DNA of 46,066 nucleotides, taken from Polaromonas sp. (GTDB taxonomy: Bacteria; Pseudomonadota; Gammaproteobacteria; Burkholderiales; Burkholderiaceae_C). How positions within the stretch are numbered: the first letter of the stretch is position 1; each line of letters starts with the position of its first letter. This document shows positions 4,256-38,435 of this stretch, piece after piece. Both the position numbers and the translations under genes were made by a program. The notes under the pieces are model-generated. The model worked only from the letters and a program-made list of their open reading frames with translations, searched no databases and was not told where the DNA came from. The stretch covers positions 1 to 46,066 of the forward strand of contig JANYED010000237.1 in the NCBI GenBank assembly GCA_025363315.1, given 5' to 3'.

Positions 4256-5335
4256 GTGCTTCACAACCAATCTTCTGCCGAATCGCTGCTAGTCGAACAA
4301 ATTCAGACTTGGGCTCGCGAACTTGGATTCTCGCAAATCGGCATTGCAGGGGTTGATCTGTCGTCGGCAGAGGCCGGATTATCCGCGTGGCTGGCGGCAG
4401 GTTTTCATGGCGACATGCACTACATGGCGGCGCATGGGCTCAAACGCGCCCGCCCCGCAGAACTGATCCCCGGTACTGTCAGTGTGATCACCGCCCGGAT
4501 GGATTACCTGCCCGCCAGTACGCCTGACGACTGGCAGGCCGTTGAATTCAGCCGGTTGCAACGGCCGGCTGAGGCGGTCGTGTCAAGCTACGCCCGGGGC
4601 CGGGACTATCACAAAGTGATGCGCGGCCGGTTGCAAAAACTCAGTGGAAAAATTGCCGCTGAAGTCAAGCAGCTGGGCCACCGTGCCTTTACCGACTCAG
4701 CTCCCGTACTGGAGGCTGAACTGGCCGCCAGAAGTGGCCAGGGCTGGCGCGGCAAGCACACGCTGGTGCTGAACCGTGAGTCCGGATCGACGTTTTTTCT
4801 GGGCGAAATTTACGTTGACATGGTCCTGCCGCTGAGTGAACCCGTGACCGCGCACTGCGGCAGTTGCACTGCCTGCATCGATGTCTGCCCAACCCGGGCG
4901 ATCATCGCGCCCTACAAGCTGGATGCGCGGCGCTGCATTTCTTACCTGACGATTGAGCACGCCGGGCCGATCCCCCATGATCTGCGCCACTTGATGGGCA
5001 ACCGCATTTATGGCTGCGACGATTGCCAGCTTGCCTGCCCGTGGAACAAGTTCGCCCAGCGCAGCGCGCTGCCAGACTTTGACGAACGGCGCGGCCTGAC
5101 AGGCCAGCAGCTGGTCACGCTGTTTGCGTGGGATGAACAGGCGTTTTTGAAATGGACCGAAGGCAGCGCAATACGCCGCATTGGCCATGAGCGCTGGCTG
5201 CGCAACACCGCGGTGGCGATGGGCAATGCGCTGCGGGCCAAAGATACGCCAGAGATTCGCGCGGCGCTTGAAAACCGCTTGCAAAATGCGTCAGAGCTGC
5301 TCAAAGAGCATATAAACTGGGCTCTAGCCCAATGA
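4256..5335 (+). CDS. queG: Epoxyqueuosine reductase QueG
   Basis: QueG is a cobalamin- and Fe-S-dependent enzyme that converts epoxyqueuosine to queuosine at tRNA position 34. Visible signatures are ELGFSQIGIAGVDLS at the N-terminus, the YMAAHGLKRARP and ITARMDYLP segments, and two 4Fe-4S motifs, CGSCTACIDVCPTRAI and CDDCQLACPWNKF. HEAT-like sequence follows at the C-terminus. No ATG lies in frame near the expected N-terminus, so the GTG at 4256 is the best start. The last residues and the TGA (5333-5335) fall inside a copy of the 42-nt dispersed repeat, so the present C-terminus (WALAQ) is partly repeat-derived. Confidence 0.92.
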   Translation: MLHNQSSAESLLVEQIQTWARELGFSQIGIAGVDLSSAEAGLSAWLAAGFHGDMHYMAAHGLKRARPAELIPGTVSVITARMDYLPASTPDDWQAVEFSRLQRPAEAVVSSYARGRDYHKVMRGRLQKLSGKIAAEVKQLGHRAFTDSAPVLEAELAARSGQGWRGKHTLVLNRESGSTFFLGEIYVDMVLPLSEPVTAHCGSCTACIDVCPTRAIIAPYKLDARRCISYLTIEHAGPIPHDLRHLMGNRIYGCDDCQLACPWNKFAQRSALPDFDERRGLTGQQLVTLFAWDEQAFLKWTEGSAIRRIGHERWLRNTAVAMGNALRAKDTPEIRAALENRLQNASELLKEHINWALAQ

Positions 5336-5367
5336 ATACGGGCGCAAGCAGCTCCTGAATTAATAGT
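5326..5367 (+). repeat. 42-nt two-hairpin dispersed repeat, copy 1 (queG 3' end)
   Basis: This copy begins AGCCCAATGAATACGGGC (stem GCCC/GGGC), has the GCAAGCAGCT linker, and ends in TGAATTAATAGT, where the second stem is weak. The queG stop codon lies in the first loop. Confidence 0.8.
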
Positions 5368-5374
5368 AACCAGA

Positions 5375-6289
5375 CTACCGCAGACCGCCCAGCATGCCCA
5401 ACGCAAACGACAAACTGACCACCCCCAGCAGCGTCGACAGCGTGACCAGGCCAGCCACATAGCCGCCGTTGTAGCCCATGCGCGCCGCCAGCACGTAAGC
5501 GCTCGACGCTGTGGGCAGGGCTGAAAACGCCAGCAAAATGGTGGTTTGCTGCAGCGGCAGATTGAACAGTTTTGCAAGCAACAGGCCCACGACCGGCGTC
5601 AAAAGATGACGAATTGACAACACCGACACAGCCAGCGTCCTGGCCTGGGACAAGTGGCCAAACTGCATGCCTGCGCCTGCGGCCATCAACCCCAATGCCA
5701 GCGACGCCGCGCCGATGCGGGTGATGGTCGGCTCCAGCCAGAACGGCATGACAAAGCCCAGCACATTGGCTACCAGCCCGGTGGCAGTCGCCAGGATGAG
5801 GGGGTTGCGCAGCAGCTCGCGGGCAAAGCCGCGCTGTGAATGGCGCGTCATCGGCCAGACGGCCGCCACATTAAACAGCGGCACGCATACGCCAATCAGC
5901 ACCGCAATCAGCTGCAGCCCCTCGGCCCCGGCCAGCCTGTCAGCCAACGCCAGGCCAATGAATGAGTTGAAGCGAAACGCCACCTGCGCACTGGCTGCGT
6001 GGTCGCGCTTGTTGATGTGTTTGCCGAGCCACGGCAGCCACGGCAGACTGTAGGCCATCGCGATGCCTGCCACGCCCATCAGGACGCCGGCGCTGATGAG
6101 GCTTGACGCAGCCACCAGGTCAAGTGGGCTTTTGACAATCGAATGAAACAGCAGTACGGGAAACAAAAAGTAATACACCAGGCTTTCAACCTGCTCCCAG
6201 ACGGTGCGGTTCAGCGCGGTGTAGCGGCAGACCAGATAGCCACAAATGATGAGCGAAAAGTCGGGGAAGAGGAGTTGGGCATAGTTCAC
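5375..6289 (-). CDS. AEC family permease (auxin efflux carrier-like)
   Basis: This integral membrane protein of 304 residues has about ten hydrophobic segments in two halves, as in the AEC/bile-arsenite-riboflavin transporter superfamily. Recognisable pieces are FLFPVLLFHSIVKSPLDL near the N-terminus, FNSFIGLALADRLAG, and NPLILATATGLVANVLGF with the typical second-half NP motif. It presumably exports or takes up a small organic acid; the substrate is unknown. A TGA lies directly before the GTG at 6287-6289, so that GTG is the only start that keeps the N-terminal helix. It is convergent with queG, with a repeat copy between them. Confidence 0.8.
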   Translation of the reverse strand: MNYAQLLFPDFSLIICGYLVCRYTALNRTVWEQVESLVYYFLFPVLLFHSIVKSPLDLVAASSLISAGVLMGVAGIAMAYSLPWLPWLGKHINKRDHAASAQVAFRFNSFIGLALADRLAGAEGLQLIAVLIGVCVPLFNVAAVWPMTRHSQRGFARELLRNPLILATATGLVANVLGFVMPFWLEPTITRIGAASLALGLMAAGAGMQFGHLSQARTLAVSVLSIRHLLTPVVGLLLAKLFNLPLQQTTILLAFSALPTASSAYVLAARMGYNGGYVAGLVTLSTLLGVVSLSFALGMLGGLR

Positions 6290-6392
6290 TCATGAAGAAT
6301 AACCCACGGGTTTGCCCTAATGCGTAATCCACAACTGAAGACGGCGGCATAACGCTTAACATTCGGGCTGCTTTGTATTCAAGGATTCCATC

Positions 6393-7358
6393 ATGCAATG
6401 TCGCTTTTTATTCGCTGTGCCTGCTTTGGCTTTGGCCTTCAGCGCTGTGCTGGCCCAAAGTTATCCCAACAAGGTTATCAAGCTTCAGGTGCCTTTTGCG
6501 CCTGGCGGCACGACTGACATTGTCGGCCGCGTGATTGCCGAGCCGCTGGGCAAGGTACTGGGGCAAACCGTGATTGTGGAAAACCGGGCCGGCGGCGGCG
6601 GTGTGGTTGGCGCAACCGAGCTGGCGCGCGCTGTGCCGGATGGCTATACGCTGGGTGTAGCCACGGTGTCGACCACGGCGGCCAACCCGGCCATCAACCC
6701 TAAAATCACCTACAACACGCTGACCGATTTCACCCCCATCATTAACATTGCGGCCACGCCCAACCTGATTGCGGTGCATCCAAGCTTTCCGGCCAAGAAC
6801 TACAAAGAGTTCATTGCTGAAGTCAAAAAGAACCCTGGCAAGTATTCGTATTCTTCGTCGGGCACTGGCGGCATTGGCCACCTGCAGATGGAGCTGTACA
6901 AAAACCTGAGCGGCGCGTTCATTACCCACATTCCGTACCGCGGCGCTGGCCCGGCTTTGAACGACACCGTGGCCGGCCAGGTCAACATGATTTTTGACAA
7001 CATTCCGTCGGCGCTGCCTTTCATTCAGCAAAAACGCCTGATCCCGATTGCGGTGGCCGCGCCGCAGCGTCTGGCGGTGCTGCCTGATGTGCCCACCTTC
7101 AAAGAGCTCGGCCTGGAGCCTGTCAACCGCATGGCTTACTACGGCATCATCGGGCCCAAAGGCTTGCCGAAAGACGTGGTGGACAAGGTCAATGCAGGCG
7201 TTAAAAAATCGCTGGAAGACCCGGCCATTCGCAAGCGGATTGAAGACACCGGCTCGATCGTCATCGGCAACACGCCCGACCAGTTCACAGCGCAAATCAA
7301 GGCTGAGTACGAGGTGTACAAAAAAGTCGTGGACACCGCCAAGCTAAGACTTGAATAA
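6393..7358 (+). CDS. Bug/TctC-family periplasmic substrate-binding protein
   Basis: This is a 321-residue tripartite-tricarboxylate-transporter-type receptor. A cleavable Sec signal (about 22 residues, ending AVLAQS) precedes the Bug core: [34 protein letters not shown] and the PxGYTLG motif in the first lobe, then [18 protein letters not shown] and [19 protein letters not shown] in the second. These proteins bind carboxylates or amides in the periplasm and are very abundant in Burkholderiales, often as orphans. No TctA/TctB membrane genes are adjacent, so the cognate permease is not apparent. The gene is followed immediately by a strong terminator, which indicates a monocistronic unit. Confidence 0.9.
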
Positions 7359-7373
7359 ATCCTTTTACATTTA

Positions 7374-7401
7374 AAAAGCCGCTTTTTCAGGCGGCTTTTT
7401 T
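7374..7401 (+). terminator. Rho-independent terminator after the Bug protein gene
   Basis: The stem is AAGCCGC / GCGGCTT with loop TTTTTCAG, followed by a run of six Ts. It begins 15 nt after the stop codon and ends just before the xerD start at 7416. Confidence 0.85.
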
Positions 7402-7415
7402 GTTATCGTCGGGCG

Positions 7416-8318
7416 ATGCATATCAACAGTTTATCCAGCATCGACAGCTTTATCGATGCGTTGTGGCTGGAAGACGGCTTGAGCAAAAACACACTGGCGG
7501 CCTATCGGCGTGACTTGTCGCTGTACGGCAATTGGCTGGCCGAAAGCGCCCAGGGTCAACGCAGTCTGAATGAAACGCTGCAAGCCCATCTGGACGGCTA
7601 CTTTTCGGCGCGTCACAGCGTCACCAAAGCCACGTCGGCCAATCGCCGATTGACGGTGTTCAAGCGTTACTTTGCCTGGGCGCTGCGTGAAGGGCTTGTC
7701 AGCGCAGACCCTACGCTGAAGCTGCAATCGGCCAGGCAGGCGCTGCGGGTGCCTAAGGTAATGAGCGAGGCGCAGGTTGAAGCGCTGCTGGCCGCACCCA
7801 GTAACGACACGGCGCTGGGCCAGCGCGACCGCGCCATGCTGGAGCTGATGTACGCCAGCGGGTTGCGTGTCAGTGAGCTGGTGGGGCTAAAGACTTTTCA
7901 TTTAAGCCTGAACGAAGGTGTGCTGCGGGTGCTGGGCAAGGGCAATAAAGAGCGGCTGGTGCCTTTCGGCCAGCTGGCGCGCGAGGCTATTGTGCGGTAC
8001 CTCAAAGACGGCAGACCTGATATTTTGAAAGGCCAGCAAACCGAGGATCTGTTTGTGACGAGTCACGGCCACGGCATGAGCCGGGTGATGTTTTGGATGC
8101 TGGTGAAAAAGTACGCGATTGTTGGCGGCATCAACTCGCCGTTGTCACCGCACACCCTGCGCCACGCCTTTGCGACGCATCTGCTCAATCACGGAGCGGA
8201 CCTGCGCGCGGTGCAAATGCTGCTGGGCCATGCCGATATATCCACCACAACGATTTATATCCACGTGGCGCGGGAGCGGCTGAAAAAAATTCTGGAAGAA
8301 AACCACCCACGTGGTTGA
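7416..8318 (+). CDS. xerD: Site-specific tyrosine recombinase XerD
   Basis: XerD resolves chromosome dimers at dif together with XerC near the septum. The protein has 300 residues, typical of the family. A SAM-like core-binding domain occupies about residues 5-95 (GLSKNTLAAYRRDLSLY), followed by the catalytic domain. The active-site residues are R151 (ASGLRVSEL), K175, H246-xx-R249 (SPHTLRHAFATHLL), H272 (LLGHADIST) and nucleophile Y281 (TTIYIHV). All are present, so it should be active. No phage or integron genes are near it, which supports the housekeeping role. Its ATG is 14 nt past the preceding terminator, so its promoter must overlap or lie within that terminator region. Confidence 0.93.
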   Translation: MHINSLSSIDSFIDALWLEDGLSKNTLAAYRRDLSLYGNWLAESAQGQRSLNETLQAHLDGYFSARHSVTKATSANRRLTVFKRYFAWALREGLVSADPTLKLQSARQALRVPKVMSEAQVEALLAAPSNDTALGQRDRAMLELMYASGLRVSELVGLKTFHLSLNEGVLRVLGKGNKERLVPFGQLAREAIVRYLKDGRPDILKGQQTEDLFVTSHGHGMSRVMFWMLVKKYAIVGGINSPLSPHTLRHAFATHLLNHGADLRAVQMLLGHADISTTTIYIHVARERLKKILEENHPRG

Positions 8319-8346
8319 GCCTGTTTACGTTTAGGCCAGGCTTCGT

Positions 8347-9162
8347 CTAGGCTTCGAGCAGCGTGAGTTCCGCGTCCTCAAAACCCGCTTTTCGGCGCGC
8401 CACCAGATTCAGCGGGCCTTTGATACGCGGTGCGTTGTACTGTTGAGCCAGCACGGCGTAGTGCGTTACCGGGTCTAGCCCGCGCTGGCTGCACAGGTGG
8501 CGGTACCAGTGGTTGCCAATCGCCACATGACCAATCTCGTCGCGCAAGATAATGTCCAGAATCTCCATTGCTCGCAGCGCGTGGGGTGTCCCCACTTTTC
8601 GCAGCTTGGCTTGCATCGGCGGCGTGGCGTCCAAGCCACGCGCCTCCAGCGTGCGCGGCACCAACGCCATGCGGGCCAGCACGTCGAGCTTGGTTTTTTT
8701 GGTCATGTCCCACAGCCCGGTGTGGGCCGGGAACTCGCCATAGTCGTAGCCCAAGCTTTGCAGATGCGCACGCAGCAAGCTGAAGTGATGCGCTTCCTCT
8801 GCTGCCACAGTGAGCCAGTCGAGGTAATACTGGCGCGGCATTCCGCCAAAGCGCCAGATCGCATCCAGTGCCAGGTTGATGGCGTTGAACTCGATATGCG
8901 TGACGGCGTGCAGCAGCGCGGCGAGGCCTTCGGTGGTGAAGGCAGAGCGTTTGGGAACGTCCAGGTGCGAGCGTAATTCTGGTCTGGCCGGACAGCCAGG
9001 CACACCAGTTGGTTCGTCAAAGGTGTCATCAACTGCTATAACTATAATAGCTGCTTGCGCCCGTATCCATTGGGTTAAAGCCACTTTTTTGCCTGGATTG
9101 GTGGCCAAAAGTGCGTCGAGCGCAAGTTTTCTGAGTTCGGGTACTTGCAGGGCGGTCATCAT
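8347..9162 (-). CDS. DUF455 ferritin-like protein
   Basis: The protein belongs to the DUF455 family, predicted ferritin-like di-iron four-helix proteins of unknown role. Signatures are LLHAVTHIEFNAINLALDAIWRF, WLTVAAEEAHHFSLLRAHL, MALVPRTLEARGLDATPP and ILDIILRDEIGHVAIGNHWY; the E/H pairs in these helices would ligate metal. The start is uncertain: ATGATG at 9157-9162 gives the family-like MTALQVPELRKLAL, while in-frame starts upstream (ATG 9180, TTG 9219) are possible. An in-frame copy of the 42-nt repeat lies near the N-terminus (9035-9076), encoding TQWIRAQAAIIVIA ahead of the conserved core. It is divergent from the carbonic anhydrase gene. Confidence 0.82.
   Translation of the reverse strand: MMTALQVPELRKLALDALLATNPGKKVALTQWIRAQAAIIVIAVDDTFDEPTGVPGCPARPELRSHLDVPKRSAFTTEGLAALLHAVTHIEFNAINLALDAIWRFGGMPRQYYLDWLTVAAEEAHHFSLLRAHLQSLGYDYGEFPAHTGLWDMTKKTKLDVLARMALVPRTLEARGLDATPPMQAKLRKVGTPHALRAMEILDIILRDEIGHVAIGNHWYRHLCSQRGLDPVTHYAVLAQQYNAPRIKGPLNLVARRKAGFEDAELTLLEA
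9035..9076 (-). repeat. 42-nt two-hairpin repeat, copy 2 (inside DUF455 gene)
   Basis: Read on the minus strand, this copy carries ACCCAATGGATACGGGC, GCAAGCAGCTATTATAG and the closing ATAGC. It lies wholly within the coding region in the sense orientation. The usual TAG of the first loop is TGG here, which keeps the frame open. Confidence 0.88.
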
Positions 9163-9228
9163 GCCGTGATTGTGCGGCATCCTTACAATCAGGGTCACAC
9201 CCACTTTTGACCCGCTCAAGCAAACACC

Positions 9229-9753
9229 ATGGCCATTTACCAGCTCGATGATTTAAAACCCAGTGTGCACCCCAGCGCCTGGGTGGCTGAAAACGCTCAG
9301 GTCATGGGCAACGTCACGTTGGCTGAAAACACCAGCATCTGGTTTGGTGTGGTGATTCGCGGCGATACATCTACCATCACGGTAGGCAAAGGCTCTAACG
9401 TGCAAGACAACAGCGTTTTGCACGCAGACGTTGGCATGCCGCTGGTGATTGGCGAGGGCGTGACGGTTGGCCACCAGGTCATGCTGCACGGCTGCACGGT
9501 GGGCGATAACGCGCTGATTGGCATCGGTGCCATCGTGTTGAACGGCGCAAAAATTGGCAACAACTGCCTGGTGGGCGCAGGCGCACTGGTGACCGAGGGC
9601 AAAGAGTTTCCCGATGGCGCCATGATCATCGGCAGCCCAGCCAAAGCAGTGCGCATGCTGTCGCCCGAGCAAATCGAGGGTTTAAAAATGAGCGCGCAGC
9701 ATTACATAGGCAATGCGAAGCGCTACAAAACCGGGCTCAAGAAATTACGCTGA
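9229..9753 (+). CDS. Gamma-class carbonic anhydrase-like hexapeptide protein
   Basis: This 174-residue left-handed beta-helix protein is of the YrdA/PaaY/CaiE type. Hexapeptide repeats run from about residue 20 to 140 (NVTLAENTSIWFGVVIRGD, VIGEGVTVGHQVMLHGCTVGD, ALIGIGAIVLNGAKIG). The zinc-binding histidines of the gamma-carbonic anhydrase fold are present: H65 (LHADVG), H82 and H87 (VGHQVMLHGC). The C-terminal helix with YIGNAKRYKTGLKKL is typical. Whether it hydrates CO2 or acts on a CoA thioester cannot be told from sequence. Confidence 0.9.
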   Translation: MAIYQLDDLKPSVHPSAWVAENAQVMGNVTLAENTSIWFGVVIRGDTSTITVGKGSNVQDNSVLHADVGMPLVIGEGVTVGHQVMLHGCTVGDNALIGIGAIVLNGAKIGNNCLVGAGALVTEGKEFPDGAMIIGSPAKAVRMLSPEQIEGLKMSAQHYIGNAKRYKTGLKKLR

Positions 9754-9808
9754 AAGATTTTTATCGTGAGCAATTTAAAACACCACACAAGCCCAATTCA
9801 AACAGGGG

Positions 9809-9895
9809 CCGCGGAACTGGCTTTGCCAGGCCGCAGGCGCAGCGACCCCCTCGGGGGGCAGGAAGCTACACGCAGTGAGCGACCGTGGGGGCGAC
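9809..9895 (+). repeat. GC-rich multi-hairpin repeat abutting the hslO start
   Basis: This block contains CTGGC-TTT-GCCAG (9817-9829) and CCCCC-TC-GGGGG (9846-9857), then ends in CAGTGAGCGACCGTGGGGGC directly before the hslO ATG. I recognise the style as a dispersed Comamonadaceae intergenic repeat, from memory only. It is a single copy in this window. The GGGGG at 9887-9891 lies 4 nt from the ATG and can serve as a Shine-Dalgarno-like sequence. Confidence 0.6.
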
Positions 9896-10864: not shown

Positions 10865-12435
<1,571 letters not shown>

Positions 12436-12476
12436 TTATTGGTTTCCAAAAAGTACTTAAAAAATAAAACGGCAAC

Positions 12477-12767
12477 TTAAACGCCTTCAATCACCACCAT
12501 GCGCATCACCGCTGCGCCCTGGCGTGCTTTGATGGCAGCTTGGTATTCAACCGAGTGGTAATAGGCTTTGGCTTGTTCCACAGACGGAAATTTCAAAATC
12601 ACCACACGGTCTGGCGTCCAGTCACCTTCCAGCACTTCAACCGAACCGCCGCGCACGCAAAACTCTGCTCCGTGTGCTTGAACCGCAATGGTCGACAGCT
12701 TTCGGTACTCAGCGTATTGCTCCGGGTTCGTCACGGTGACGTTGGCGATGATGTAGGCGGATGGCAT
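12477..12767 (-). CDS. DUF1330 domain protein
   Basis: This 96-residue dimeric alpha-beta barrel-type protein shows the DUF1330 pattern: MPSAYIIANVTVTNPEQYAEYRK at the N-terminus, GAEFCVRGG, LEGDWTPDRVVILKFPSVEQAKAYYHS and YQAAIKARQGAA. The family has no agreed biochemical role. Its position between kdsA (4 nt upstream) and eno (about 40 nt downstream) is recurrent in Burkholderiales and suggests co-transcription rather than a shared pathway. Confidence 0.88.
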   Translation of the reverse strand: MPSAYIIANVTVTNPEQYAEYRKLSTIAVQAHGAEFCVRGGSVEVLEGDWTPDRVVILKFPSVEQAKAYYHSVEYQAAIKARQGAAVMRMVVIEGV

Positions 12768-12770
12768 GAA

Positions 12771-13637: not shown

Positions 13638-13638
13638 C

Positions 13639-15333
<1,695 letters not shown>

Positions 15334-15440
15334 TTAGTCGTTTCTGGCACGAGCTTTTGCTCGCTTAGGTGGGAAATGTTGATTATAGGCGGTGAGTGTT
15401 TGACGAAATGCTAGCGGCGCAAACTGATACATTGCTTGGC

Positions 15441-16697
15441 ATGACTCCTCAAACTGATCTTGTAGATGCCGCCCAGACGCTTGAGCTGTCTGGCAAACAC
15501 ATCGTTTTAGGCCTGTCTGGCGGCATTGCCTGCTACAAGTCCGCCGAGCTGTGCCGCGCGCTCATCAAAGCCGGTGCCACCGTGCAGGTGGTGATGACCG
15601 AGGCGGCTGAACAGTTCATCACGCCCGTGACGATGCAGGCACTCAGTGGTCGAGCAGTGTTTACCAGCCAGTGGGACGCTAGAGAAGACAACAACATGGC
15701 GCACATCAATTTGTCGCGTGAAGCCGATGCCATTTTGATTGCGCCCTGCAGCGCCGACTTCATGGCCAAGTTGCTGCACGGCCGGGCTGATGACTTACTG
15801 CGTTTGATGTGTCTTGCCCGACCCATTGACACCGTGCCATTGTTGCTGGCGCCGGCCATGAACCGCGAGATGTATGCCCACCCAGCTACCCAGCGCAACC
15901 TTACGCAATTGCAAAGCGATGGCGCAACCGTGCTGGGTGTGGGCAGCGGCTTTCAAGCCTGCGGCGAGACGGGCGACGGCCGCATGCTGGAACCTGATGA
16001 ACTGCTGCAAGACATCATTGCTTTTTTTACCCCCAAAGTGATGGCGGGGCAGCGCGTACTGATCACTGCCGGGCCGACCTATGAGGCCATCGACCCGGTG
16101 CGCGGCATCACCAATTTATCAAGCGGCAAGATGGGTTTTGCCATCGCTCGCGCTGCGCGTGAAGCGGGGGCTGATGTGACACTGGTAGCTGGGCCGGTTG
16201 GCTTGTCGACACCGCGCGGAGTGAGCAGAATTGACGTCAAATCAGCATCAAATATGCTTGAAGCCGTTATTTTACGGCTGCAAGCAGCTACTGTATTTAT
16301 AGCAACCGCAGCGGTGGCAGACTGGCGACCCGCAGCCTTTGAAAGCCGAAAGATCAAAAAAGACAGCTCTGGTGTGCCGCCGCAGCTGGCGTTTGCTGAA
16401 AATCAGGATATTTTGGCAACCGTCGCGCAATCGGAAGCCGCCAAAAATGGCAAGTTGTTTTGTGTCGGTTTTGCCGCTGAAAGCCACGACTTGCATGAAA
16501 ACGCCCAAGCCAAGCGCATGCGCAAAAACGTGCCACTGCTGATCGGCAACATTGGCCCCGACACCTTTGGCCAAGACCACAATGCGCTGCTCCTTGTTGA
16601 TAGCCAAAGCACAACTGAAATGCCCAGAGCCAGCAAGCTGACGCTGGCGCGGCAGCTGGTCAAAGAGATTGCCAACCGTATGAAAAAATCAAAATGA
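15441..16697 (+). CDS. coaBC: Bifunctional phosphopantothenoylcysteine decarboxylase/synthetase CoaBC
   Basis: CoaBC performs two consecutive steps of coenzyme A synthesis: ligation of cysteine to 4'-phosphopantothenate (CoaB) and decarboxylation (CoaC). The N-terminal flavodoxin-like CoaC domain shows [31 protein letters not shown], the [13 protein letters not shown] motif and [11 protein letters not shown]. The CoaB domain follows from about residue 200: [32 protein letters not shown] and [11 protein letters not shown]. Several in-frame starts exist (GTG 15396, ATG 15408, ATG 15441). I chose 15441 because it leaves the shortest extension before the KHIVLG strand. The segment just before the AAVADW motif overlaps a repeat-like sequence at 16262-16303. 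The stop overlaps dut. Confidence 0.95.
16262..16303 (+). repeat. Degenerate 42-nt repeat-like segment inside coaBC
   Basis: AGCCGTTATTTTACGGCT forms a 6-bp stem at the place of the repeat's first hairpin. GCAAGCAGCTA matches the linker exactly, and the segment ends ATTTATAGC. The length is exactly 42 nt. It is read in the same frame as the DUF455 and methyltransferase copies. The encoded residues also fit the CoaB family, so this could be an old, adapted copy or a coincidence. Confidence 0.4.
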
Positions 16698-18203: not shown

Positions 18204-18294
18204 GCGCTCAGCTCGCGATTGATTCAAGCTGGTAAGGGGTTAAAACGGGACTAAATTGCTCGCAGATATACTTTTAGTTGTTAAATAAGGCTGT

Positions 18295-18336
18295 AGCCCA
18301 ATAGATACGGGCGCAAGCAGCTCCTGAAAAAATAGC
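18295..18336 (+). repeat. 42-nt two-hairpin repeat, copy 3 (intergenic)
   Basis: A near-consensus copy: AGCCCAATAGATACGGGC (stem GCCC/GGGC), GCAAGCAGCT, then CCTGAAAAAATAGC. It lies in the gap upstream of the glycine-zipper lipoprotein gene. Confidence 0.88.
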
Positions 18337-18535
18337 AAACTAGTGCACTCAGCATACCCTTCGCGCGACGTTCTAGCGCTTTCCCACGGCAAGACGGCAC
18401 GCACCCCTACGCCTGCCTTGATGTGTTGAGCCTGTTATAAAAAGCAAGGGTTGAATCCGTGGCGTCAAACCTTGGAAACAGGAAAGTTTTGGGCTCCATA
18501 CCGCTACCCGTTTTTTCTCAGTTGCATCGTCAGCG

Positions 18536-24868: not shown

Positions 24869-25534
24869 CTAGCCGGCGCGACATTTTGACGTCAGCCTGT
24901 AGCGCGTGGGAGCAGGGTTTACCGTATCTTCACGCACGGCAGCAATGCGCTGGATGAAACGCGGCTGCTTGCCTAGCGCGCCGTCGACAAAACCGTCTTC
25001 AAACGCCACCACCCGCAAGTCCTTGCAAACCTGCAGCAGCTCTCCGGGTTGCAGTAAAAAATCCGCGCGTGATGGTTTGCCAACCGTTTCGTTTCCCTTT
25101 GCAAAGGTTTCGTAAATCAACACGCCGCCCGGCGCCAGACTTGCCAGCAGTGTCGGCATGAGGGGCCGCCACAGGTAGTTGGTCACCACCACGGCATCAA
25201 ACTGCTGCTGCGCAAATGGCCACGGCCCGTTTTCAATGTCGGCCGTCACCTTTTGGCAGGCAGCTGCTGGAATCGCTATGGAATCAATAGCTGCTGGCGC
25301 CCGATCTACAAGGGCTTGTGTGTGATTTAGTCCGTAAAACCAGTAGGCGTGCCGACCAAAGCCGCAGGCGACGTCGAGCACACGACCTTCGGGTGCGACC
25401 AAGTGTGACCAGCGCTGAACCCACGCCGAGGGCGGCTCTGTGCCGCGCGGGCTAAAACTGGTTAAAGGGTCGGTCAAAAGGGCTTTACCCCATGGCTCGC
25501 CGCAGCCCGTACGATGTAGTTGCGCCTGCCGCAC
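24869..25534 (-). CDS. Class I SAM-dependent methyltransferase
   Basis: This is a Rossmann-fold methyltransferase of about 221 residues from the GTG at 25534. Motif I is VLDVACGFGRHAYW, motif II is the acidic VDRA, then ADIENGPWPF, FDAVVVTNYLWR and APGGVLIYETFAKGNETVGKPSRADFLLQPGEL; the last is characteristic of a Burkholderiales group of unassigned methyltransferases. The frame extends upstream to a GTG at 25627, but that extension is a 42-nt repeat copy (25547-25588), so the shorter start is preferred. A second repeat copy lies within the gene (25275-25316) and encodes ALVDRAPAAIDSIA at the SAM-binding strand. The substrate is unknown. Confidence 0.82.
   Translation of the reverse strand: MRQAQLHRTGCGEPWGKALLTDPLTSFSPRGTEPPSAWVQRWSHLVAPEGRVLDVACGFGRHAYWFYGLNHTQALVDRAPAAIDSIAIPAAACQKVTADIENGPWPFAQQQFDAVVVTNYLWRPLMPTLLASLAPGGVLIYETFAKGNETVGKPSRADFLLQPGELLQVCKDLRVVAFEDGFVDGALGKQPRFIQRIAAVREDTVNPAPTRYRLTSKCRAG
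25275..25316 (-). repeat. 42-nt two-hairpin repeat, copy 4 (inside methyltransferase gene)
   Basis: On minus it reads AGCCCTTGTAGATCGGGC, GCCAGCAGCTATTGATT and the closing ATAGC, about 85% like the best intergenic copy outside the loops. It lies in the sense orientation and in the same frame as the DUF455 copy. Confidence 0.75.
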
Positions 25535-25546
25535 TGGTGTGTCGTC

Positions 25547-25588
25547 ACTATTAATTTCATAGCTGCTCGCGCCCGTATTTATTGGCTT
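25547..25588 (-). repeat. 42-nt two-hairpin repeat, copy 5 (upstream of the methyltransferase gene)
   Basis: On minus it reads AAGCCAATAAATACGGGC, GCGAGCAGCTATGAAAT and TAATAGT. It overlaps the possible N-terminal extension of the methyltransferase, in a different frame from copy 4. Confidence 0.85.
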
Positions 25589-25656
25589 ATAGGTATAAAT
25601 GGTACTCAAATGATGCCTAAATCGCACTCAAAATGACCCTAAACGGCCGCTGCGCG

Positions 25657-27029: not shown

Positions 27030-27153
27030 GCACTGACTTTAACTTGACTGCGGTCTGGCCGCCTCAGGCAACACAGCGCGCACCGCAAAAGCTGTTGTTT
27101 TATCCAGCTTCTTTTGCTGCGCCGTCTACAATTGCATCAAAATATTGATTGCC

Positions 27154-30056: not shown

Positions 30057-30063
30057 GCCAGAC

Positions 30064-31302: not shown

Positions 31303-31323
31303 TTTTTCAGCATTCATTTTTCG

Positions 31324-33690
31324 ATGGACCTCTTTACCCCCGACAACGCGCCCGCCAGCCCTGAATCCGCTGACCAGGATTCACTCAGCGCTTACGCCCA
31401 GCGTGCTTACCTTGAATACGCGCTCAGCGTTGTAAAAGGCCGTGCGCTGCCCGACGCCTGTGATGGCCAAAAACCAGTGCAGCGGCGCATTTTGTACAGC
31501 ATGTCGCGCATGGGCCTGGGCTTTGGCGGCGCAAACGGTGCCAGCGGTGCCAAGCCCGTTAAAAGCGCCCGCGTCGTTGGCGATGTGCTGGGCAAATACC
31601 ACCCGCATGGCGACAGCGCTGCTTACGACGCGATGGTGCGCATGGCGCAAGACTTCAGCCAGCGCTATCCGCTGGTCGATGGCCAGGGCAACTTTGGCAG
31701 CCGTGACGGCGACAGCGCCGCCGCCATGCGTTACACCGAGGCGCGTCTGGCCCGCATCACCAGCCTGCTACTTGACGAGCTGGACGAAGGCACTGTGGAC
31801 TTTATTCCCAACTACGACGGCTCGTTTGAAGAGCCGCGCCAGTTGCCCGCGCGCCTGCCGTTCACGCTGCTCAACGGTGCCAGCGGTATCGCGGTCGGCC
31901 TTGCCACGGAGATCCCCAGCCACAACCTGCGCGAGGTGGCTGACGCCTGCATTGCCCTGATCAAAACGCCCAAGCTGCCAGACAACGAGCTGTACAGCAT
32001 CATTGCCGGGCCCGACTACCCCGGCGGTGGGCAAATTATCTCCAGCGCTACTGAAATAGCAGCAGCCTACAGCACCGGCCGTGGCTCGCTCAAGGTGCGC
32101 GCCCGATGGAAGATTGAAGACCTGGCGCGTGGCCAGTGGCAGCTGGTGGTGACTGAATTGCCGATTGGCGTCAGCACCCAAAAGGTGCTGGAAGAAATTG
32201 AAGAGCTGACTAACCCGAAAATCAAGGTGGGTAAAAAAGCGCTGGGTCTCGAGCAATTGCAGCTAAAACAAACGTTGCTGTCGGTGCTTGACGTGGTGCG
32301 TGACGAATCAGGCAAAGAAGCCGCCGTGCGCCTGGTGTTTGAACCCAAAACCAGCCGCATTGAGCAAAGCGAGCTCATCACCACGCTGCTGGCCCACACC
32401 AGTCTGGAAAGTTCATCGCCCATCAACCTGACCATGATTGGCCTTGATGGCCGGCCCGCGCAAAAATCACTCAGGCAAATGCTCAACGAGTGGATTGAGT
32501 TCAGGCAAACCACCATCGCCCGGCGCTCGCAATACCGGCTAACCAAGGTGCTGGACCGCATCCACATTCTGGAAGGCCGCGCGCTGGTGCTGCTGAACAT
32601 TGACGAGGTGATTGCCATCATCCGCCAGTCAGATGAGCCTAAAGGCGCGCTGATTGGGCGCTTCAAGCTCAGCGACCGGCAGGCTGAAGATATTCTGGAA
32701 ATCCGCCTGCGCCAGCTTGCGCGGCTGGAAGCCATCAAGATTGAGCAAGAGCTCAAAAGCCTGCGCGAAGAGCAAGTCAGGCTGGAAGAAATTCTGGGTA
32801 ATCCGGCGTCACTCAAGCGCCTGATGGTCAAGGAAATTGAGGCGGATGCCAAACAGTTTGCCGACCCGCGCCGCACCCTGATCCAGGCCGAGAAAAAAGC
32901 TGTACTAGAAGTCAAGGTTCTCGACGAGCCTGTCACGGTGGTCGTCAGCAGCAAGGGCTGGATACGCGCTAGATCCGGCCACGGCCACGACGCTGCGAGC
33001 TTCGCATTTAAAGAAGGCGACGGACTTTACGGCACGTTTGAATGCCGCACGGTTGACACGCTGCTGGTGTTTGGCAGCGCCGCCAAAGGCACGGGCCGCG
33101 TTTACTCAGTGGCCGTGTCTCTGCTACCTGGCGCACGCGGCGACGGCCAGCCTGTCACTACACTGATCGAACTCGAATCTGGCACACAGCCCCTGCATTA
33201 CTTTGCGGGCCCCGCGAGTGCCACCCTCCTGCTGTCCAGTAGCGGCGGCTACGGCTTTTTGGCCAGTGTCGAAACCATGACCTCCAGACCCAAGGCAGGC
33301 AAGGCCTTCATCAGCTGCGCAGAAGGTGAGTTCATCTGCAAACCATCGCATGCATCAGGCGCATCGGGCAGCACGCCGCGCAACCCCGCCACCCACGTGG
33401 CTTGTGCCTCTACCGCAGGCAGAATTCTGACGTTTGAGATCACAGAACTCAAACAAATGGCTGGCGGCGGTCGCGGCTTGATGTTGATTGACCTGGACGA
33501 CAAAGACACCCTGGCAGGCGCTGCAGCCTATACCCGTAGCGTTCGGATCGAAGGTATTGGCCGCGGCGGTAAAGCCAGAGACGAAACGCTGGAGATCCGC
33601 AGCCTGAACAACGCCCGAGCCGCCAGAGCACGCAAAGGCAAGGCGGCTGACCTGGGGTTCAAGCCAACGTCTGTGACACGTGTGGAGTAA
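31324..33690 (+). CDS. parC: DNA topoisomerase IV subunit A
   Basis: ParC is the DNA-cleaving subunit of topoisomerase IV, 788 residues. The winged-helix core has [40 protein letters not shown] (the quinolone-determining Ser97 and Asp96 are wild type) and the active-site Tyr137 in [11 protein letters not shown] long coiled coil (about 440-510, [18 protein letters not shown]) leads into the beta-pinwheel C-terminal domain with GRG-like blades. The gene is the last of the parE-slt-GGDEF-parC unit. Confidence 0.96.
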
Positions 33691-33724
33691 CTTTTTATTA
33701 GTTTCAGCTATGAAAAGTGCCTGC

Positions 33725-33766
33725 AGCCCAATTAAATCGGGCGCGAGCAGCTATTTATTTAATAGC
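33725..33766 (+). repeat. 42-nt two-hairpin repeat, copy 6 (parC/MFS gap)
   Basis: AGCCCAATTAAATCGGGC, GCGAGCAGCTATTTATTT, then AATAGC. Its second stem GCTATT/AATAGC is perfect. It overlaps the 3' end of the MFS gene on the minus strand and supplies that gene's TAG stop (33751-33753) and its last codons. Confidence 0.9.
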
Positions 33767-34989
33767 AGTTTGCGCTTGCCCAGCGCCATTGAAAAGTAAA
33801 CGCCGACCGCCGTCACCAGCATGCCGCCGGCCGCTACCACAGCGGGTGAGCCGACACGGTCAATCAGCTTGGCAGCGAAAAACACGCCGACCGATTGACC
33901 CAAAAACAGCGATGCCGCAAACAGCGACACCGCAGTGCCGCGCGCCTGCGGGGTCATTTGGGCAGCGTTGGCCTGCAGTGTGTTGTGCAGCATGAAAAAG
34001 CCGAACCCCCCGAACAGACAAGCGGGCAGCGCCAGCGTCCAGTACGGGGTAAAGGCCACCACCAGCGCGGCCACACCCACAAGGCCAGCGCCAAGCAGGG
34101 TCAGGCCGGGTTGCCCCAGGCGGCTGATCAGGTGCCGGGCTGTTGCCATGTAGGCGACGCCGCCCAGGCCAAACAGCGCCACAATGGCGCCCGCACTGGT
34201 CAGCGACAAGCCCAGGCAATTGTGCAGATGCGACGCCCACACTGCCAGCACGCCAAAGCCGGTGGCGCCCTCAATGAAAGCGACCGTCAGCACCACGCGC
34301 GACCACGGCCCGGTGACGATGCTCAAAGCCTGGGCCACAAAGCCGGGTCGCGGGGCTTGATTGTCGGCCTGTGCTTCCGCATTGGCGGCGCCAGCACGGG
34401 CCAGAGCCTGCTGGGCACGCCAATTGAGGTACAGCAAACCCCCGACCACGGTAAAAAGCACCGCCATGAAGGCAAACGCCCAGCGCCATCCGAGCGTGTC
34501 GGTCAGCACGCCGCCCAACAGCTGGCCGCTGACCAGGCCCAGCGTGCTGCCCAGGCCAACCCGGGCCAGCGTTTCTTGCAGCTGGTCGTGCGGCGCCACA
34601 TCTCCGGCCCAGGCCATCGCCAGCGGAATGATCGCCGCCGCGCCCAGCGCTACCATCATTCTGGCGATGACCAGGGTGCTTAACGTGCCCGCAAACACCG
34701 CCAGCATACTGCCGACACTGCAGGCCAGCGTGGCGTAAGTCACGATGCGGAACTTGCCCAGCCGGTCGCCCATCGGCCCATAAAAAAGCTGCGCTGCGCC
34801 ATACACCACGGCAAACACCGATATCACTTGCGCGGCCTGCCCCAGGCTGACCGAGAACACCCGCGCCAGCTCGGGCAACATGGCATCACAAATCCGCTGC
34901 GCCGCCATGCTGGAAAAGGTCGCAAACGACAGCAGCAAAATCGATTGTTTGGCAGCGACTGAAAGGGGGGCGGTGGTGTGGGTTGTCAT
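33751..34989 (-). CDS. MFS transporter
   Basis: This 412-residue major facilitator has twelve TM segments. The loop 2-3 motif is GPMGDRLGKFRIVTYA; VGLGSTLGLVSGQLLGGVLTDTLGWRWAFAFMAVL is characteristic of the drug/efflux branch (multidrug or arabinose-efflux type). The substrate is unknown. The C-terminal residues LLLNK and the TAG stop fall inside a 42-nt repeat, so the native C-terminus has been replaced or extended. It is convergent with parC. Confidence 0.85.
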   Translation of the reverse strand: MTTHTTAPLSVAAKQSILLLSFATFSSMAAQRICDAMLPELARVFSVSLGQAAQVISVFAVVYGAAQLFYGPMGDRLGKFRIVTYATLACSVGSMLAVFAGTLSTLVIARMMVALGAAAIIPLAMAWAGDVAPHDQLQETLARVGLGSTLGLVSGQLLGGVLTDTLGWRWAFAFMAVLFTVVGGLLYLNWRAQQALARAGAANAEAQADNQAPRPGFVAQALSIVTGPWSRVVLTVAFIEGATGFGVLAVWASHLHNCLGLSLTSAGAIVALFGLGGVAYMATARHLISRLGQPGLTLLGAGLVGVAALVVAFTPYWTLALPACLFGGFGFFMLHNTLQANAAQMTPQARGTAVSLFAASLFLGQSVGVFFAAKLIDRVGSPAVVAAGGMLVTAVGVYFSMALGKRKLLLNK

Positions 34990-35325
34990 GAAGTCTGATG
35001 GGTGTTTGTGCTTGCCCGGGGTGCTTCAGGCATTATTGAAGAAAACCAGCGCAGGCATTGCGGCTTGTTCAATGAGGGCGTTGCAACGCTTGGTTTCCTT
35101 TTAGCGGTGTTTCACGGGGTTTGAGACGAATTGTAGGTGACGTTTCGCCTGCAGGCCAATCGATTCGGGCGCGAACAGCTCCTTATTTTATAGCATTTTA
35201 AGATCATCAAGTAACGCTGGTGACCACCACAGCTGAAGGCGCTGGCTGACAGACCAACGCTCTGTTGCCCCGCCGCAAAAGCCCCGGCGAGTGCGCAAGA
35301 TGGGGGTTTATCCACAAGGAGATGT
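34990..35325. other. Intergenic region between MFS and HPF-like genes
   Basis: The 336-bp divergent region contains one 42-nt repeat copy (35153-35194). It must hold the promoters of both flanking genes, but I find no clear -10/-35 pair. Near the right end a strong Shine-Dalgarno AAGGAG (35316-35321) precedes the HPF-like ATG. No gene is supported here. Confidence 0.5.
35153..35194 (+). repeat. 42-nt two-hairpin repeat, copy 7 (intergenic)
   Basis: AGGCCAATCGATTCGGGC, GCGAACAGCTCCTTATT, then TTATAGC. The first stem has one change from consensus. Confidence 0.8.
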
Positions 35326-35676
35326 ATGCAAGTTTTGCTCAATACCGATCACCACACAGACGGCGGCCACGAGATGGCCGACCATTTGAGCGTGGTCGTC
35401 AAGGATGCAGTAGCCCAATTCGGCGAGCACGTCACCAAAGTCGTGGCCTACATTGCCGACGAAAACGGCAGCGCAAAAGCTACTCCAGACGACATTCAAT
35501 GCACGCTTGAGGCACGCCTCGTTGGGCACGACCCGGTGGTGGTCAAAGACCGTGCTGGCAGCGCGCACCAGGCCATTGCAGGTGCGGCCAGCAAGCTCAA
35601 GCGTGCCGTCGCTACTGTGCTGGCAAAGCAGCATCCACGGCAAACGCAGCAACGCGGCGCTGATGCGGCAGACTGA
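35326..35676 (+). CDS. HPF/RaiA-like ribosome-associated protein
   Basis: The 116-residue protein shows the beta-alpha-beta-beta-beta-alpha pattern of ribosome hibernation factors: MQVLLNTDHHTDG, a helix ADHLSVVVKDAVAQFGEHVTKVVAYIADENG, CTLEARLVGHDPVVVKDRAG and AIAGAASKLKRAVATVLAK. It is an atypical, short HPF/RaiA relative of the kind present in extra copies in Burkholderiales. The Shine-Dalgarno is strong (AAGGAG, 4 nt spacing), which fits high stress-phase expression. It is probably monocistronic; the next gene starts 170 bp on. Confidence 0.75.
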   Translation: MQVLLNTDHHTDGGHEMADHLSVVVKDAVAQFGEHVTKVVAYIADENGSAKATPDDIQCTLEARLVGHDPVVVKDRAGSAHQAIAGAASKLKRAVATVLAKQHPRQTQQRGADAAD

Positions 35677-35846
35677 CGGGCCTGATCAATGCCCTTTGGG
35701 GGCTGCTGCCTGGCCGGATTCTCTGTGAAAGTTCCTTGCGCTCGACCTGTCTTGACTGTGTTTTCCCTAGGCTGCATTTGCTGCGGCAAGGCCTACGATT
35801 TGGGCGTGCCGATGGGCGCAAAAACAGTCAAAACACGGGAATTACC

Positions 35847-37325
35847 ATGAAAACTCACTTTTTGGCCGTCGTCTGCCGGTCAGCAACTTGCGCGGCGGTC
35901 GCCATCACTCTCATATCATGCGCCAACATGCCTCAGGAAAGTGCCGATGCCGCCCTGCAGCGCGCCAACATCGCTATGGGCGGCGCAGCGGTCAAGAGCA
36001 TTTCTTTTGCTGGCAGCGGCACAGGCAGCACCTTTGGTCAGGCGTTTCAGCCCGGCCAAGCCTGGCCCAAAATCACGTATTCAAGCTTTTCACGCGTGGC
36101 CGACTACGAAAACGCCGCCTTCAGGGAAGACGCGGCCCGCAGCCGGGCCGAGCCAACCGGCGGTGGCGCAGTTCCGCTGATGGGCACCGGCGAGCAGCGT
36201 ACCAGCGGCTTCATGCGCGGTACGGCCGCCTGGAACGTGGCGGGCACTGCGCCCGCCGCAGCCCCTGTGGCTTACGACATGCGGGTACACGACCTGTGGA
36301 CCACGCCGCACGGCGTCATCAAAGCGGCCCTGGCTAACCCAGCAACAGCCGAGACGCGCATGTTGGGCGGCAAGCCCATGACGGCGGTCTCGTTTGCGGT
36401 GCCGGGCCGCTACCGCGCTACCGCATTCATCAATGCACAGGGACTGGTTGAGCAAATTGACTCGGTTCAGCCGCATCCAGTGATGGGCGATACCCCGTCA
36501 ACGATTGTTTTTTCAGACTACAAAGACACGGGGGGCATCAAGTTCCCGATGCGCATCCGGCAAAGCATGGGCGGCTTCCCGGTACTGGACTTGACGGTCA
36601 ACGATGTCAAACCCAACTCAGCTGCAGGCATCGACATGCCTGCAGCGGTCGCCGCCTTTGCAGAGCGCCCCGTGGCCACCAAGGCGGCTGAAGGCGTGTG
36701 GTTTTTGGCGGGCGGCTCGCACAACAGCGTGGCCATTGAAATGAAAGACCACATCATCGTGGTCGAAAGCCCGCTTTACGATGGCCGCGCAGTGCCAACA
36801 CTGCAAGAGGCTAAAAACCTGGCGGGCAACAAGCCCATCCGCTTTGTTATCAACTCTCACCATCACTTTGACCACGCGGGCGGCCTGCGCAGCGCGGTGG
36901 CCGAAGGCGCAACGCTGGTTACCAGCGAGCAGGCGCGGCCGTATTTTGAAACCACGCTGGCTAACCCCAACAGCATCAAACCCCACGCAATGCAGGCATC
37001 GGGTAAAAAAGCCGTAGTTACGGGTGTCAACGGCAAACGCACTTTTACCGACGGTGAACGTGTGGTCGAAGTCTTCTACATTGAAGGCAGCGTGCACGCC
37101 GAAGGCTTCATGATGGTGTATTTGCCGAAGGAAAAAATCCTTATTGAAGCCGACGCCTTTACGCCCGGCGCGCCGAATGCACCGGCACCAGCCGCGCCAA
37201 ACGCCTTGCATGTAAACCTCGTGCAAAACATCGAGCGCCTAAAGCTTGATGTGGCGCAAATCCTGCCGCTGCATGGCCGCATGGTGGCTTTGACTGAGCT
37301 TTACACGGCGGTTGGTAAAAAGTAA
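35847..37325 (+). CDS. MBL-fold hydrolase lipoprotein with an N-terminal extra domain
   Basis: The 492-residue protein has a signal with lipobox LISC (Cys25), so it should be a periplasm-facing lipoprotein. Residues about 30-265 form an outer-membrane-lipoprotein-carrier-like region (YRATAFINAQGLVEQIDSV, FSDYKDTGGIKFPMRI). The metallo-beta-lactamase domain follows with H338-x-H340-x-D342-H343 (NSHHHFDHAGG), EGSVHAEGFMMVYLPKEKILIEADAF and the final LPLHGR. The substrate is unknown. The ATG at 35847 gives a good signal peptide; the frame is open upstream, but that segment is not signal-like. Confidence 0.8.
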   Translation: MKTHFLAVVCRSATCAAVAITLISCANMPQESADAALQRANIAMGGAAVKSISFAGSGTGSTFGQAFQPGQAWPKITYSSFSRVADYENAAFREDAARSRAEPTGGGAVPLMGTGEQRTSGFMRGTAAWNVAGTAPAAAPVAYDMRVHDLWTTPHGVIKAALANPATAETRMLGGKPMTAVSFAVPGRYRATAFINAQGLVEQIDSVQPHPVMGDTPSTIVFSDYKDTGGIKFPMRIRQSMGGFPVLDLTVNDVKPNSAAGIDMPAAVAAFAERPVATKAAEGVWFLAGGSHNSVAIEMKDHIIVVESPLYDGRAVPTLQEAKNLAGNKPIRFVINSHHHFDHAGGLRSAVAEGATLVTSEQARPYFETTLANPNSIKPHAMQASGKKAVVTGVNGKRTFTDGERVVEVFYIEGSVHAEGFMMVYLPKEKILIEADAFTPGAPNAPAPAAPNALHVNLVQNIERLKLDVAQILPLHGRMVALTELYTAVGKK

Positions 37326-37402
37326 ACCGAACTGAAGCGGCCTTGTTTTTTAAAACGATGCCGCCATCTCCCTACTTGTAACTCTTACGGACTGGGGCCA
37401 TC

Positions 37403-38335
37403 ATGCTGAAAAATTTCTTGCGTTTGTTTGTTGCTTGCCTGGCGCTGGCGGGCGCTGCCGTCATGGTGAACGCCCCCGCCATGGCGCAGGCCGAGCCAAC
37501 CATCAACCAGATTTACGACGCGGCGCAGTCTGGCAAGCTGGACCAGGCGCAAACCATGGTGCAGCAGGTGCTGGTCTTGCACCCGAAAAGCGCCAAAGCG
37601 CACTACGTGCAGGCCGAGCTGTTTGCGCGCCAGGGCTTGCCCGCTAAGGGCCGGGAAGCGCTGGCCGAGGCCGACAAGCTGGCGCCCGGCTTGCCGTTTG
37701 CCAAGCCTGACGCCGTGCAAGCCCTGCGCACGCAACTGACCGCCAAGTCCGCGGCCGCGACCACGCCAGCCAAACAAAGCTTTGGCATGGACACGCCAGC
37801 GACTGCCACCTCATCTGTTTCACCTGGCCTGATACTGCTCCTGGGTGCGGCCGTGGTTGGCGTGGTGGTGTGGCTGATTCGCCGCAAGCCCGCTGCAGCC
37901 TTGCCCAACGCCATGCCTGCGGCCATGCCGGCAACCATGGGAAATGGAATCAATGGCCTGAACGGCCCGCAAACCTTTGGCACAGGCGCCACACCTGCTT
38001 TTGGCCAACCTGGCTATGCGCAGCCAGGCTATGCGCAGCCCGGCTACGGCCAATCCGCAGGTACCGGCATGGGCGGCCGCGTGATGGGCGGCCTGGCGAC
38101 TGGCCTTGCGGTTGGCGCAGGCGTGATGGCTGCGCAGGCGATTGGTAAAAACTTGATGGGCAACGACGACCACAACTCAAACAATGCCGGGCATTTGAAC
38201 GACAACGCCGGCAATCGACTTGAGCCTCTGCCCGGCAATGCTGATCTGGGTGGCCAGAACTTCGGCATGAACGACAGCACGTCCTGGGACGACGCGGGCG
38301 GCGACATCGGCGGTGGCGGCGACTGGGACAGCTGA
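37403..38335 (+). CDS. TPR-like exported/membrane protein with Gly-rich acidic tail
   Basis: The 310-residue protein has a signal peptide (ACLALAGAAVMVNAPAMAQA), a tetratricopeptide-like pair of helices at 32-95 (TINQIYDAAQSGKLDQAQTMVQQVLVLHPKSAKAHYVQAELFARQG), one TM segment (about 137-155, GLILLLGAAVVGVVVWLIRRK) and a low-complexity tail. The tail contains three tandem PGYAQ-like 15-bp units (38009-38053), a glycine zipper (GGRVMGGLATGLAVGAG) and a Gly/Asp-rich end. The form suggests a membrane-anchored scaffold. I cannot name a family; similar genes are common in Comamonadaceae. Confidence 0.65.
   Translation: MLKNFLRLFVACLALAGAAVMVNAPAMAQAEPTINQIYDAAQSGKLDQAQTMVQQVLVLHPKSAKAHYVQAELFARQGLPAKGREALAEADKLAPGLPFAKPDAVQALRTQLTAKSAAATTPAKQSFGMDTPATATSSVSPGLILLLGAAVVGVVVWLIRRKPAAALPNAMPAAMPATMGNGINGLNGPQTFGTGATPAFGQPGYAQPGYAQPGYGQSAGTGMGGRVMGGLATGLAVGAGVMAAQAIGKNLMGNDDHNSNNAGHLNDNAGNRLEPLPGNADLGGQNFGMNDSTSWDDAGGDIGGGGDWDS
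38009..38053 (+). repeat. Three tandem 15-bp units encoding PGYAQ
   Basis: Units begin at 38009, 38024 and 38039. The first two differ by one base; the third encodes PGYGQ. The period is a multiple of three, so copy-number change keeps frame. Confidence 0.75.
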
Positions 38336-38394
38336 TTGCTAATAAAGCTGCTAGGACATCGGTTTCGGTTATTTTTAGGCGTCATCAGGCTGCA

Positions 38395-38435
38395 AGCCAA
38401 TAGATACGGGCGCGAGCAGCTATATAATTTATAGT
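38395..38435 (+). repeat. 42-nt two-hairpin repeat, copy 8 (intergenic, 1 nt short)
   Basis: AGCCAATAGATACGGGC, GCGAGCAGCTATATAATT, then TATAGT. It lies between the TPR-like gene and uvrD. The rest of the 267-bp gap (38336-38602) shows no gene; a TACAAT at 38592 is a possible but poorly supported -10 for uvrD. Confidence 0.85.

Follow-up and report, generated by a model that had tools for sequence, protein, structure and literature searches.

The 46,066-nucleotide contig stretch of a Polaromonas sp. assembly analysed here (the window) carries ten clear copies of a dispersed motif about 95 bases long. It is very probably a motif of the DNA itself, which varies between clades in dialects and is not mainly borne by insertion. 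The best guess at its role, a tentative one drawn from genome comparison, is that it may serve as a DNA-uptake signal, like the DNA uptake sequences (DUS) of the Neisseriaceae and the uptake signal sequences (USS) of the Pasteurellaceae.

The assembly (3.57 Mb) is called the source genome, or "own"; the congener G053 was used for site-by-site comparison. With at most two mismatches allowed, the core search pattern ACGGGCGCNAGCAGCT matches the whole assembly 613 times, 301 times forward and 312 times in reverse; the reversed pattern, used as control, gives 13 matches (3 + 10). A 72-nt profile was built from 92 own copies, and a matrix with the centre masked was used as a second scorer. The profile has 236 hits of at least 12 bits in an own sample of 1,096,536 bases (the window, L033-L052 and L133-L192), a density biased upward since these are mostly contigs preselected for matches; the reversed sequence gives no hits. 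A preliminary description of the window had proposed a dense dispersed family with eight clear copies, to be dismissed if a genome-wide search returned a handful. The family is indeed dense and has hundreds of copies in the genome, far beyond a handful. All eight copies are real and lie where they were placed; the number of clear copies was too low, as ten reach 30 bits in the profile and two, in coaBC and uvrD, had been missed. The masked matrix adds a weak eleventh. Positions within a copy are counted from the T of TACGGGCGC, which is position 0. The copies in the window are as follows.

5274..5370, + strand: copy, given from -63 to +33, overlapping the 3' end of queG (QueG by NCBIfam); profile 60.2 bits.
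9032..9128, - strand: copy in the 5' portion of a DUF455 frame (8347-9204), whose start codon is uncertain; 53.5 bits.
16210..16306, + strand: copy within coaBC, missed in the preliminary description (profile match 16242-16306); 36.7 bits.
18243..18339, + strand: intergenic copy, the top match of the window; 68.5 bits.
25272..25368, - strand: copy in the 5' part of a methyltransferase frame (24869-25627); 31.5 bits.
25544..25640, - strand: copy close to the start of the same methyltransferase frame; 55.3 bits.
33673..33769, + strand: copy between the convergent parC and MFS genes, overlapping both gene ends; 62.3 bits.
35101..35197, + strand: intergenic copy; 49.4 bits.
38342..38438, + strand: intergenic copy; 50.3 bits.
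40757..40853, - strand: copy within the 3' part of uvrD, on the strand opposite the gene, also missed earlier (profile match 40824-40758); 38.5 bits.
44202..44298, - strand: weak, doubtful copy within a long frame (profile match 44200-44271); 12.4 bits, masked score 18.8.

The motif extends from about -63 to +33. Three parts can be told apart: the outer framework (about GSCTNYAGCCCAATAAA ... AGCAGCTATTAAAT.AATAGCAA), the short centre, which varies between clades, and a single arm of AT tracts. The tracts peak at -63, -53, -43, -33/-32 and -21, about 10 bp apart and all on one side, both in the source genome and in G053; the other side has a single weak peak at +33. Individual bases are conserved from about -34 to +32, and those at +14 to +16 are nearly invariant. 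The unit of 42 nt first described is therefore too short.

The two conserved hairpins assigned to that unit were not borne out either. All four pairs of stem 1 are intact in 43% of 233 own copies and in 2% of 103 G053 copies; G053 thus keeps the element and almost never the stem. All five pairs of stem 2 are intact in 31% and 39% of these copies, respectively, and its outer three pairs are nearly always present. Among 50 own and 50 G053 copies there is no stem covariation beyond shuffles: 68.2% of cells are paired compared with a shuffled mean of 68.0%, and 101 of 500 shuffles reach the observed score. The most strongly linked positions in own copies are mostly near one another and show no Watson-Crick excess. 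A two-hairpin RNA was dropped for lack of covariation. Such a lack had been expected to reduce the family to trivial similarity, yet a strong motif remains at the DNA level. The motif also shows no conserved palindrome of the kind expected of a repetitive extragenic palindromic element (REP) mobilised by a REP-associated tyrosine transposase (RAYT), and it had correctly been set apart from paired REP or REPIN units.

Excess mutual information between neighbouring positions is 0.08 bits in own copies and 0.07 bits in G053 copies; beyond 20 nt it is 0.0018 and 0.0000 bits. There are no subfamilies, because long-range linkage between positions is almost nil, and nothing points to recent copying.

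The dialects are seen most directly at sites shared by the two genomes. The G053 sample (40 stretches, 800 kb) has 103 hits, with none for the reversed control. Both flanks could be aligned to G053 for 35 own copies, and a counterpart (masked score of at least 10, no more than 250 nt from the projected place) is present in 26 cases; 8 sites score below 5. In the reverse direction, 25 of 28 G053 copies have an own counterpart. Shared sites are 84-86% identical from +14 to +31 and 50-51% identical in the centre, from +2 to +9. Copies in the source genome read TACGGGCGCRAGCAGCT and those in G053 about TACNTGGGCNAGCAGCT, and the own-centre score at orthologous sites is 19.2 in the former and -6.3 in the latter. 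Further centres occur in five other genera, whose best copies read ATATCGCGGGAG (G159), TACCTGCGCAAG (G209), TACRRGCGCTAG (G227), CACCTGCGCAAG (G232) and TACCTRCGCTAG (G139, four copies). G082, from the same genus as the source genome, has a centre of the G053 type. All dialect examples from outside the source genome and G053 are best-scoring matches only (20, 10, 10, 10, 6 and 4 copies).

Copies inside genes bear on how the motif came to its sites. The preliminary description implied insertion of a mobile unit. In-frame insertion, for which the Rickettsia palindromic elements are a known model, was also suggested by the 60 of 222 own copies that lie inside frames and by a frame preference among them (31 of 37 on the same strand as the gene, 17 of 23 on the opposite strand). 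A 72-nt insertion would mean 24 additional residues. In-frame insertion was dropped, as homologues are not some 24 residues shorter: relative to solved homologues, the copies in LigA and CoaBC bring no extra residues, the ABC transporter is 1 residue shorter, and MCC-beta and TruB are longer by 4 and about 4 residues. The length of CoaBC is unchanged relative to both the E. coli and the mycobacterial protein. In UvrD the alignment does not reach the copy. In the coding copies examined, insertion of the kind known from miniature inverted-repeat transposable elements (MITEs), in which the element adds its own length, was not seen. Intragenic copies are found in mutS, mutL, ligA and uvrD (L035:10243-12870, L144:711-2555, L167:14185-16386 and window 38603-41056), which is an anecdotal observation.

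TruB is the clearest case. Its orthologues were compared in the best 30 of 51 matching genomes of the genus, and in 30/30 there are 36 residues between YEYAR and CSKGTY; the motif score over the same region takes graded values between -31.9 and 57.8. Presence and absence differ by substitutions, many of them synonymous. Because motif-bearing and motif-free orthologues are equally long, this copy changes by substitution and not by insertion. In the four genomes that have no more than 12 matches in total the score is -13 to -26, and in the other 26 it has a median of 26, although these genomes are related and hence statistically non-independent. TruB of G058 scores low (6.5). Of the 35 pairwise alignments between own copies and G053, 25 are gapless on the G053 side, and several own copies face gaps of 9 to 25 nt; some insertion or deletion may thus have occurred, intergenic sites included.

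The position of copies relative to genes was determined for the 222 own copies that score 20 bits or more, with genes called by codon bias (978 in the 1.10-Mb own sample). Copies are commonest between convergent genes: the 76 convergent regions (40 bp or longer) hold 49, the 357 tandem regions 77 and the 128 divergent regions 15. The rest comprise the 60 copies inside frames by at least 60 nt, about a quarter of the total, 9 inside frames near an end, and 12 at contig edges. The median distance from a copy to a gene 3' end is 48 nt. The tail is directed at the gene in 64 of 101 copies within 150 nt of a 3' end. Copies in tandem regions divide almost evenly by strand, 37 with the gene and 40 against it. 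Thirteen pairs of own copies lie within 400 bp of each other, which is the chance number; 10 have their AT arms facing, 63-191 bp apart, and 3 are direct. Examples of facing arms are L036:13815/13927, L149:12591/12728 and L181:1793/1941. In G053 there are 3 such pairs, each of a different kind, so the own bias towards facing arms (10/13) is not repeated there (1/3).

The motif is unevenly distributed. Within the genus, 68 of 87 genomes have matches at E 0.01: 52 have at least 57, 16 have between 1 and 55, and the remaining 19 have none at this threshold. At family level, matches occur in 53 of 150 genomes and in 46 of 126 genera, in keeping with the earlier mention of similar repeats in Comamonadaceae; the other 97 genomes have no match. 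Across the order 2 of 120 genomes match, the source genome and one other of the same family, and the other families sampled have none. Per-genome match counts at all three levels are lower bounds, and dialects distant from the model may have escaped. The competence protein ComEC is found in 80 of 87 congeners, including motif-free ones. In several congeners (for example G053:C28, G074:C6 and G013:C12) the ComEC match is split in two within a single frame of about 912-951 amino acids, additional sequence lying between model positions about 274 and 296-301; in others it is unbroken, and the protein is about 853-900 amino acids long.

A search for Y1 transposases had been proposed in the preliminary description. 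The source genome does have two Y1 genes, with copies of the motif a few hundred bases upstream of both frames, and the close relatives G053, G074 and G014 have in common one copy beside a Y1 gene. Across 31 Y1 loci of the genus, however, the motif is not concentrated: 7 hold a copy, and the 8 copies in 97.7 kb (0.082 per kb) compare with the 103 copies in 800 kb of G053. Y1 genes are present in 60 of 61 congeners, motif-free ones included. An origin by RAYT was dropped because copy density at these loci is not raised; the copies at both own loci and the shared copy keep a small chance for it. One own locus (L032:1375-2460, contig C186) has its Y1 gene (1465-2346) flanked on both sides by repeats of the GGGGTCAGGTCT type and two motif copies just upstream. 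This gene looks like a RAYT with a repeat family of its own.

From these comparisons we infer that one sequence-specific factor reads the motif and that its sites multiply by a drive. Copies would arise and vanish by substitution at existing sites, within the limits set by the encoded protein, and hundreds of sites in one genome have a common centre. The likeliest drive would be natural transformation. Fragments bearing the motif would be taken up better and would overwrite homologous motif-free sites, and the centre would follow the receptor. A motif whose sequence is altered at fixed sites, on either strand, constrained by protein and divided into dialects is what biased uptake and recombination would yield for DUS and USS (PMC3630211, PMC7811141, PMC12616744; here and below, papers are cited from excerpts). 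Like these signals, the motif is present in many copies on both strands, has copies in TruB, LigA and CoaBC that did not arrive by insertion, and has clade-specific dialects. A slightly bolder and correspondingly less secure form of the proposal is that Comamonadaceae possess an uptake signal which evolved apart from those of Neisseriaceae and Pasteurellaceae; it would be long and would have an arm phased on one side, no fewer than six centre dialects and genome-wide rewriting of the centre at fixed sites, including sites in genes.

The likeness to known signals has limits. DUS are also dispersed in high number, in and between genes, and also have clade dialects (PMC3630211); they are about 10-13 bases long, occur in thousands of copies and often form inverted terminator pairs, whereas the motif described here has about 95 bases, an AT arm and hundreds of copies. 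USS combine a core with bent AT tracts on one side and have two dialects, but the extended USS is listed as about 17 bases, with an unrelated core, and the present arm has five tracts (PMC7811141, PMC12616744).

Several observations count against an uptake signal spread by substitution. Both DUS and USS are much shorter than the motif. In the own sample, close pairs do not form terminator-like inverted repeats, which are a frequent but not required trait of such signals. ComEC is above the cut-off in 17 of the 19 match-free genomes, so competence genes do not separate genomes with the motif from those without. The GpsA copy is an exception among coding copies, as its region is 13 residues longer than in the homologue, and the largest gap in the G053 alignments, 49 nt, lies opposite an own copy. 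TruB of G024 lacks the motif (-31.9) even though that genome is rich in matches. Own copies are also more unevenly similar than shuffles (closest pair 61/72, shuffled maximum 59); this slight excess may come from the mixture of strong and weak copies, and in G053 the closest pair (52) stays under the shuffled maximum (54).

It is partly because ComEC does not discriminate, and because the spacing of the AT tracts also recalls the gyrase motif, that uptake is proposed tentatively and that a bending or wrapping site is given some weight as the main, though less likely, rival. Here the AT arm would wrap around gyrase or a lineage-specific nucleoid protein, this protein would read the centre, and sites near gene 3' ends would assist in handling supercoils, as proposed for the bacterial interspersed mosaic element BIME-2. 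The E. coli gyrase motif, the Mu strong gyrase site and BIME-2 share with the present motif a flank of AT/GC phased at about 10 bp and a location at gene 3' ends; in the E. coli motif the flank runs from -63 to -17 with a period of 10.75, close to the tracts at -63 to -21 described above (PMC6379681). The cleavage preference of type II topoisomerases also varies between species (PMC12324340), and the raised frequency of copies between convergent genes speaks for this rival. The gyrase motif is degenerate and symmetrical, though, while the present one is sequence-specific, with +14 to +16 nearly invariant, and phased on one side, with five tracts upstream and one weak tract downstream. Selection on hundreds of single sites in conserved genes also seems weak without a drive. 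Gyrase is general, while most of the family genomes sampled have no match. An IHF site was considered and dropped; the match was partial and made by eye only. Rather less probable than a topological site is concerted evolution by some other bias, without DNA uptake, in which the centres would be rewritten by ectopic gene conversion or through a motif tied to recombination and recognised by a repair enzyme. The change of centre at shared sites and the lack of subfamilies fit any drive; ectopic conversion, however, should leave linked tracts, and the mutual information beyond 20 nt is close to zero.

An old mobile repeat is improbable, whether a REP mobilised by RAYT or a MITE, with copies that became fixed and have since been decaying. 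The hundreds of copies, the two Y1 genes with copies at both loci, the copy shared beside a Y1 gene in three congeners and the 49-nt gap would all suit it, and REP and REPIN are likewise short, dispersed and mostly intergenic. They differ by the conserved palindrome missing here, and the coding copies without insertion, the sparse copies at Y1 loci and the presence of Y1 genes in motif-free congeners all speak against such an origin. Least credible is a structured RNA of 3' untranslated regions, acting as terminator, stabiliser or processing site and built on the stems first described. The short distance to gene 3' ends and the near-constant outer pairs of stem 2 would agree with it; pairing and covariation are at the level of shuffles, copies in tandem regions take either strand almost equally, and Rfam gives no match in the window at gathering scores.

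Fragments of the motif have probably been reported before. Spaced motifs are described from Acidovorax ebreus and Polaromonas CJ2 (GCTTAT(N)5AAGCG, 114 copies; ATAGCT(N)22CAAAAG, 125 copies) and 140 spaced pairs from Rhodoferax ferrireducens; they are mostly intergenic, often between convergent genes, and reported as unexplained (PMC5217627). That they are pieces of the present motif is judged from the published patterns and not from alignment, and the portion of that paper used describes neither the full element nor its dialects. The betaproteobacterial repeat elements (BRE) are similar in size (about 90 bp) and are mostly intergenic; they reach at most 29 copies per genome, have a mean GC of 69% in Bordetella and form tandem arrays (PMC3110155). 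Identity with BRE was dropped on copy number, GC and arrangement, as given in the published description. The excerpts on uptake signals speak of two families, Neisseriaceae and Pasteurellaceae (PMC3630211, PMC7811141, PMC12616744). No report of such a signal was found for Comamonadaceae or Burkholderiales in the literature searched, which covers few subscription papers, and none of six taxon names looked for occurs in the portion of PMC3733652 consulted. If the motif is an uptake signal, it would be a further one, long, probably bent and with many dialects, in a large environmental family. Two questions would then become testable: how uptake signals originate and shift their specificity, and whether their role is self-recognition or they are a side effect of biased uptake. 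Should gyrase or a nucleoid protein turn out to read the motif, there would still be hundreds of fixed sites rewritten in step, some in conserved genes, to explain.

Two sites in the window have counterparts elsewhere. In L053, which holds the closest relative of the window's ParC, a copy with a different centre lies at the same place between parC and the MFS gene; the nearest named ParC proteins are from metagenome-assembled genomes (MAGs), one of Comamonadaceae (94%) and then one of Polaromonas (87%). The two methyltransferase-gene copies (window 25272-25640) are 272 bp apart, in and before the gene. A Polaromonas MAG locus (L054:2205-2273) has one counterpart of the copy at 25272..25368, with similar flanks.

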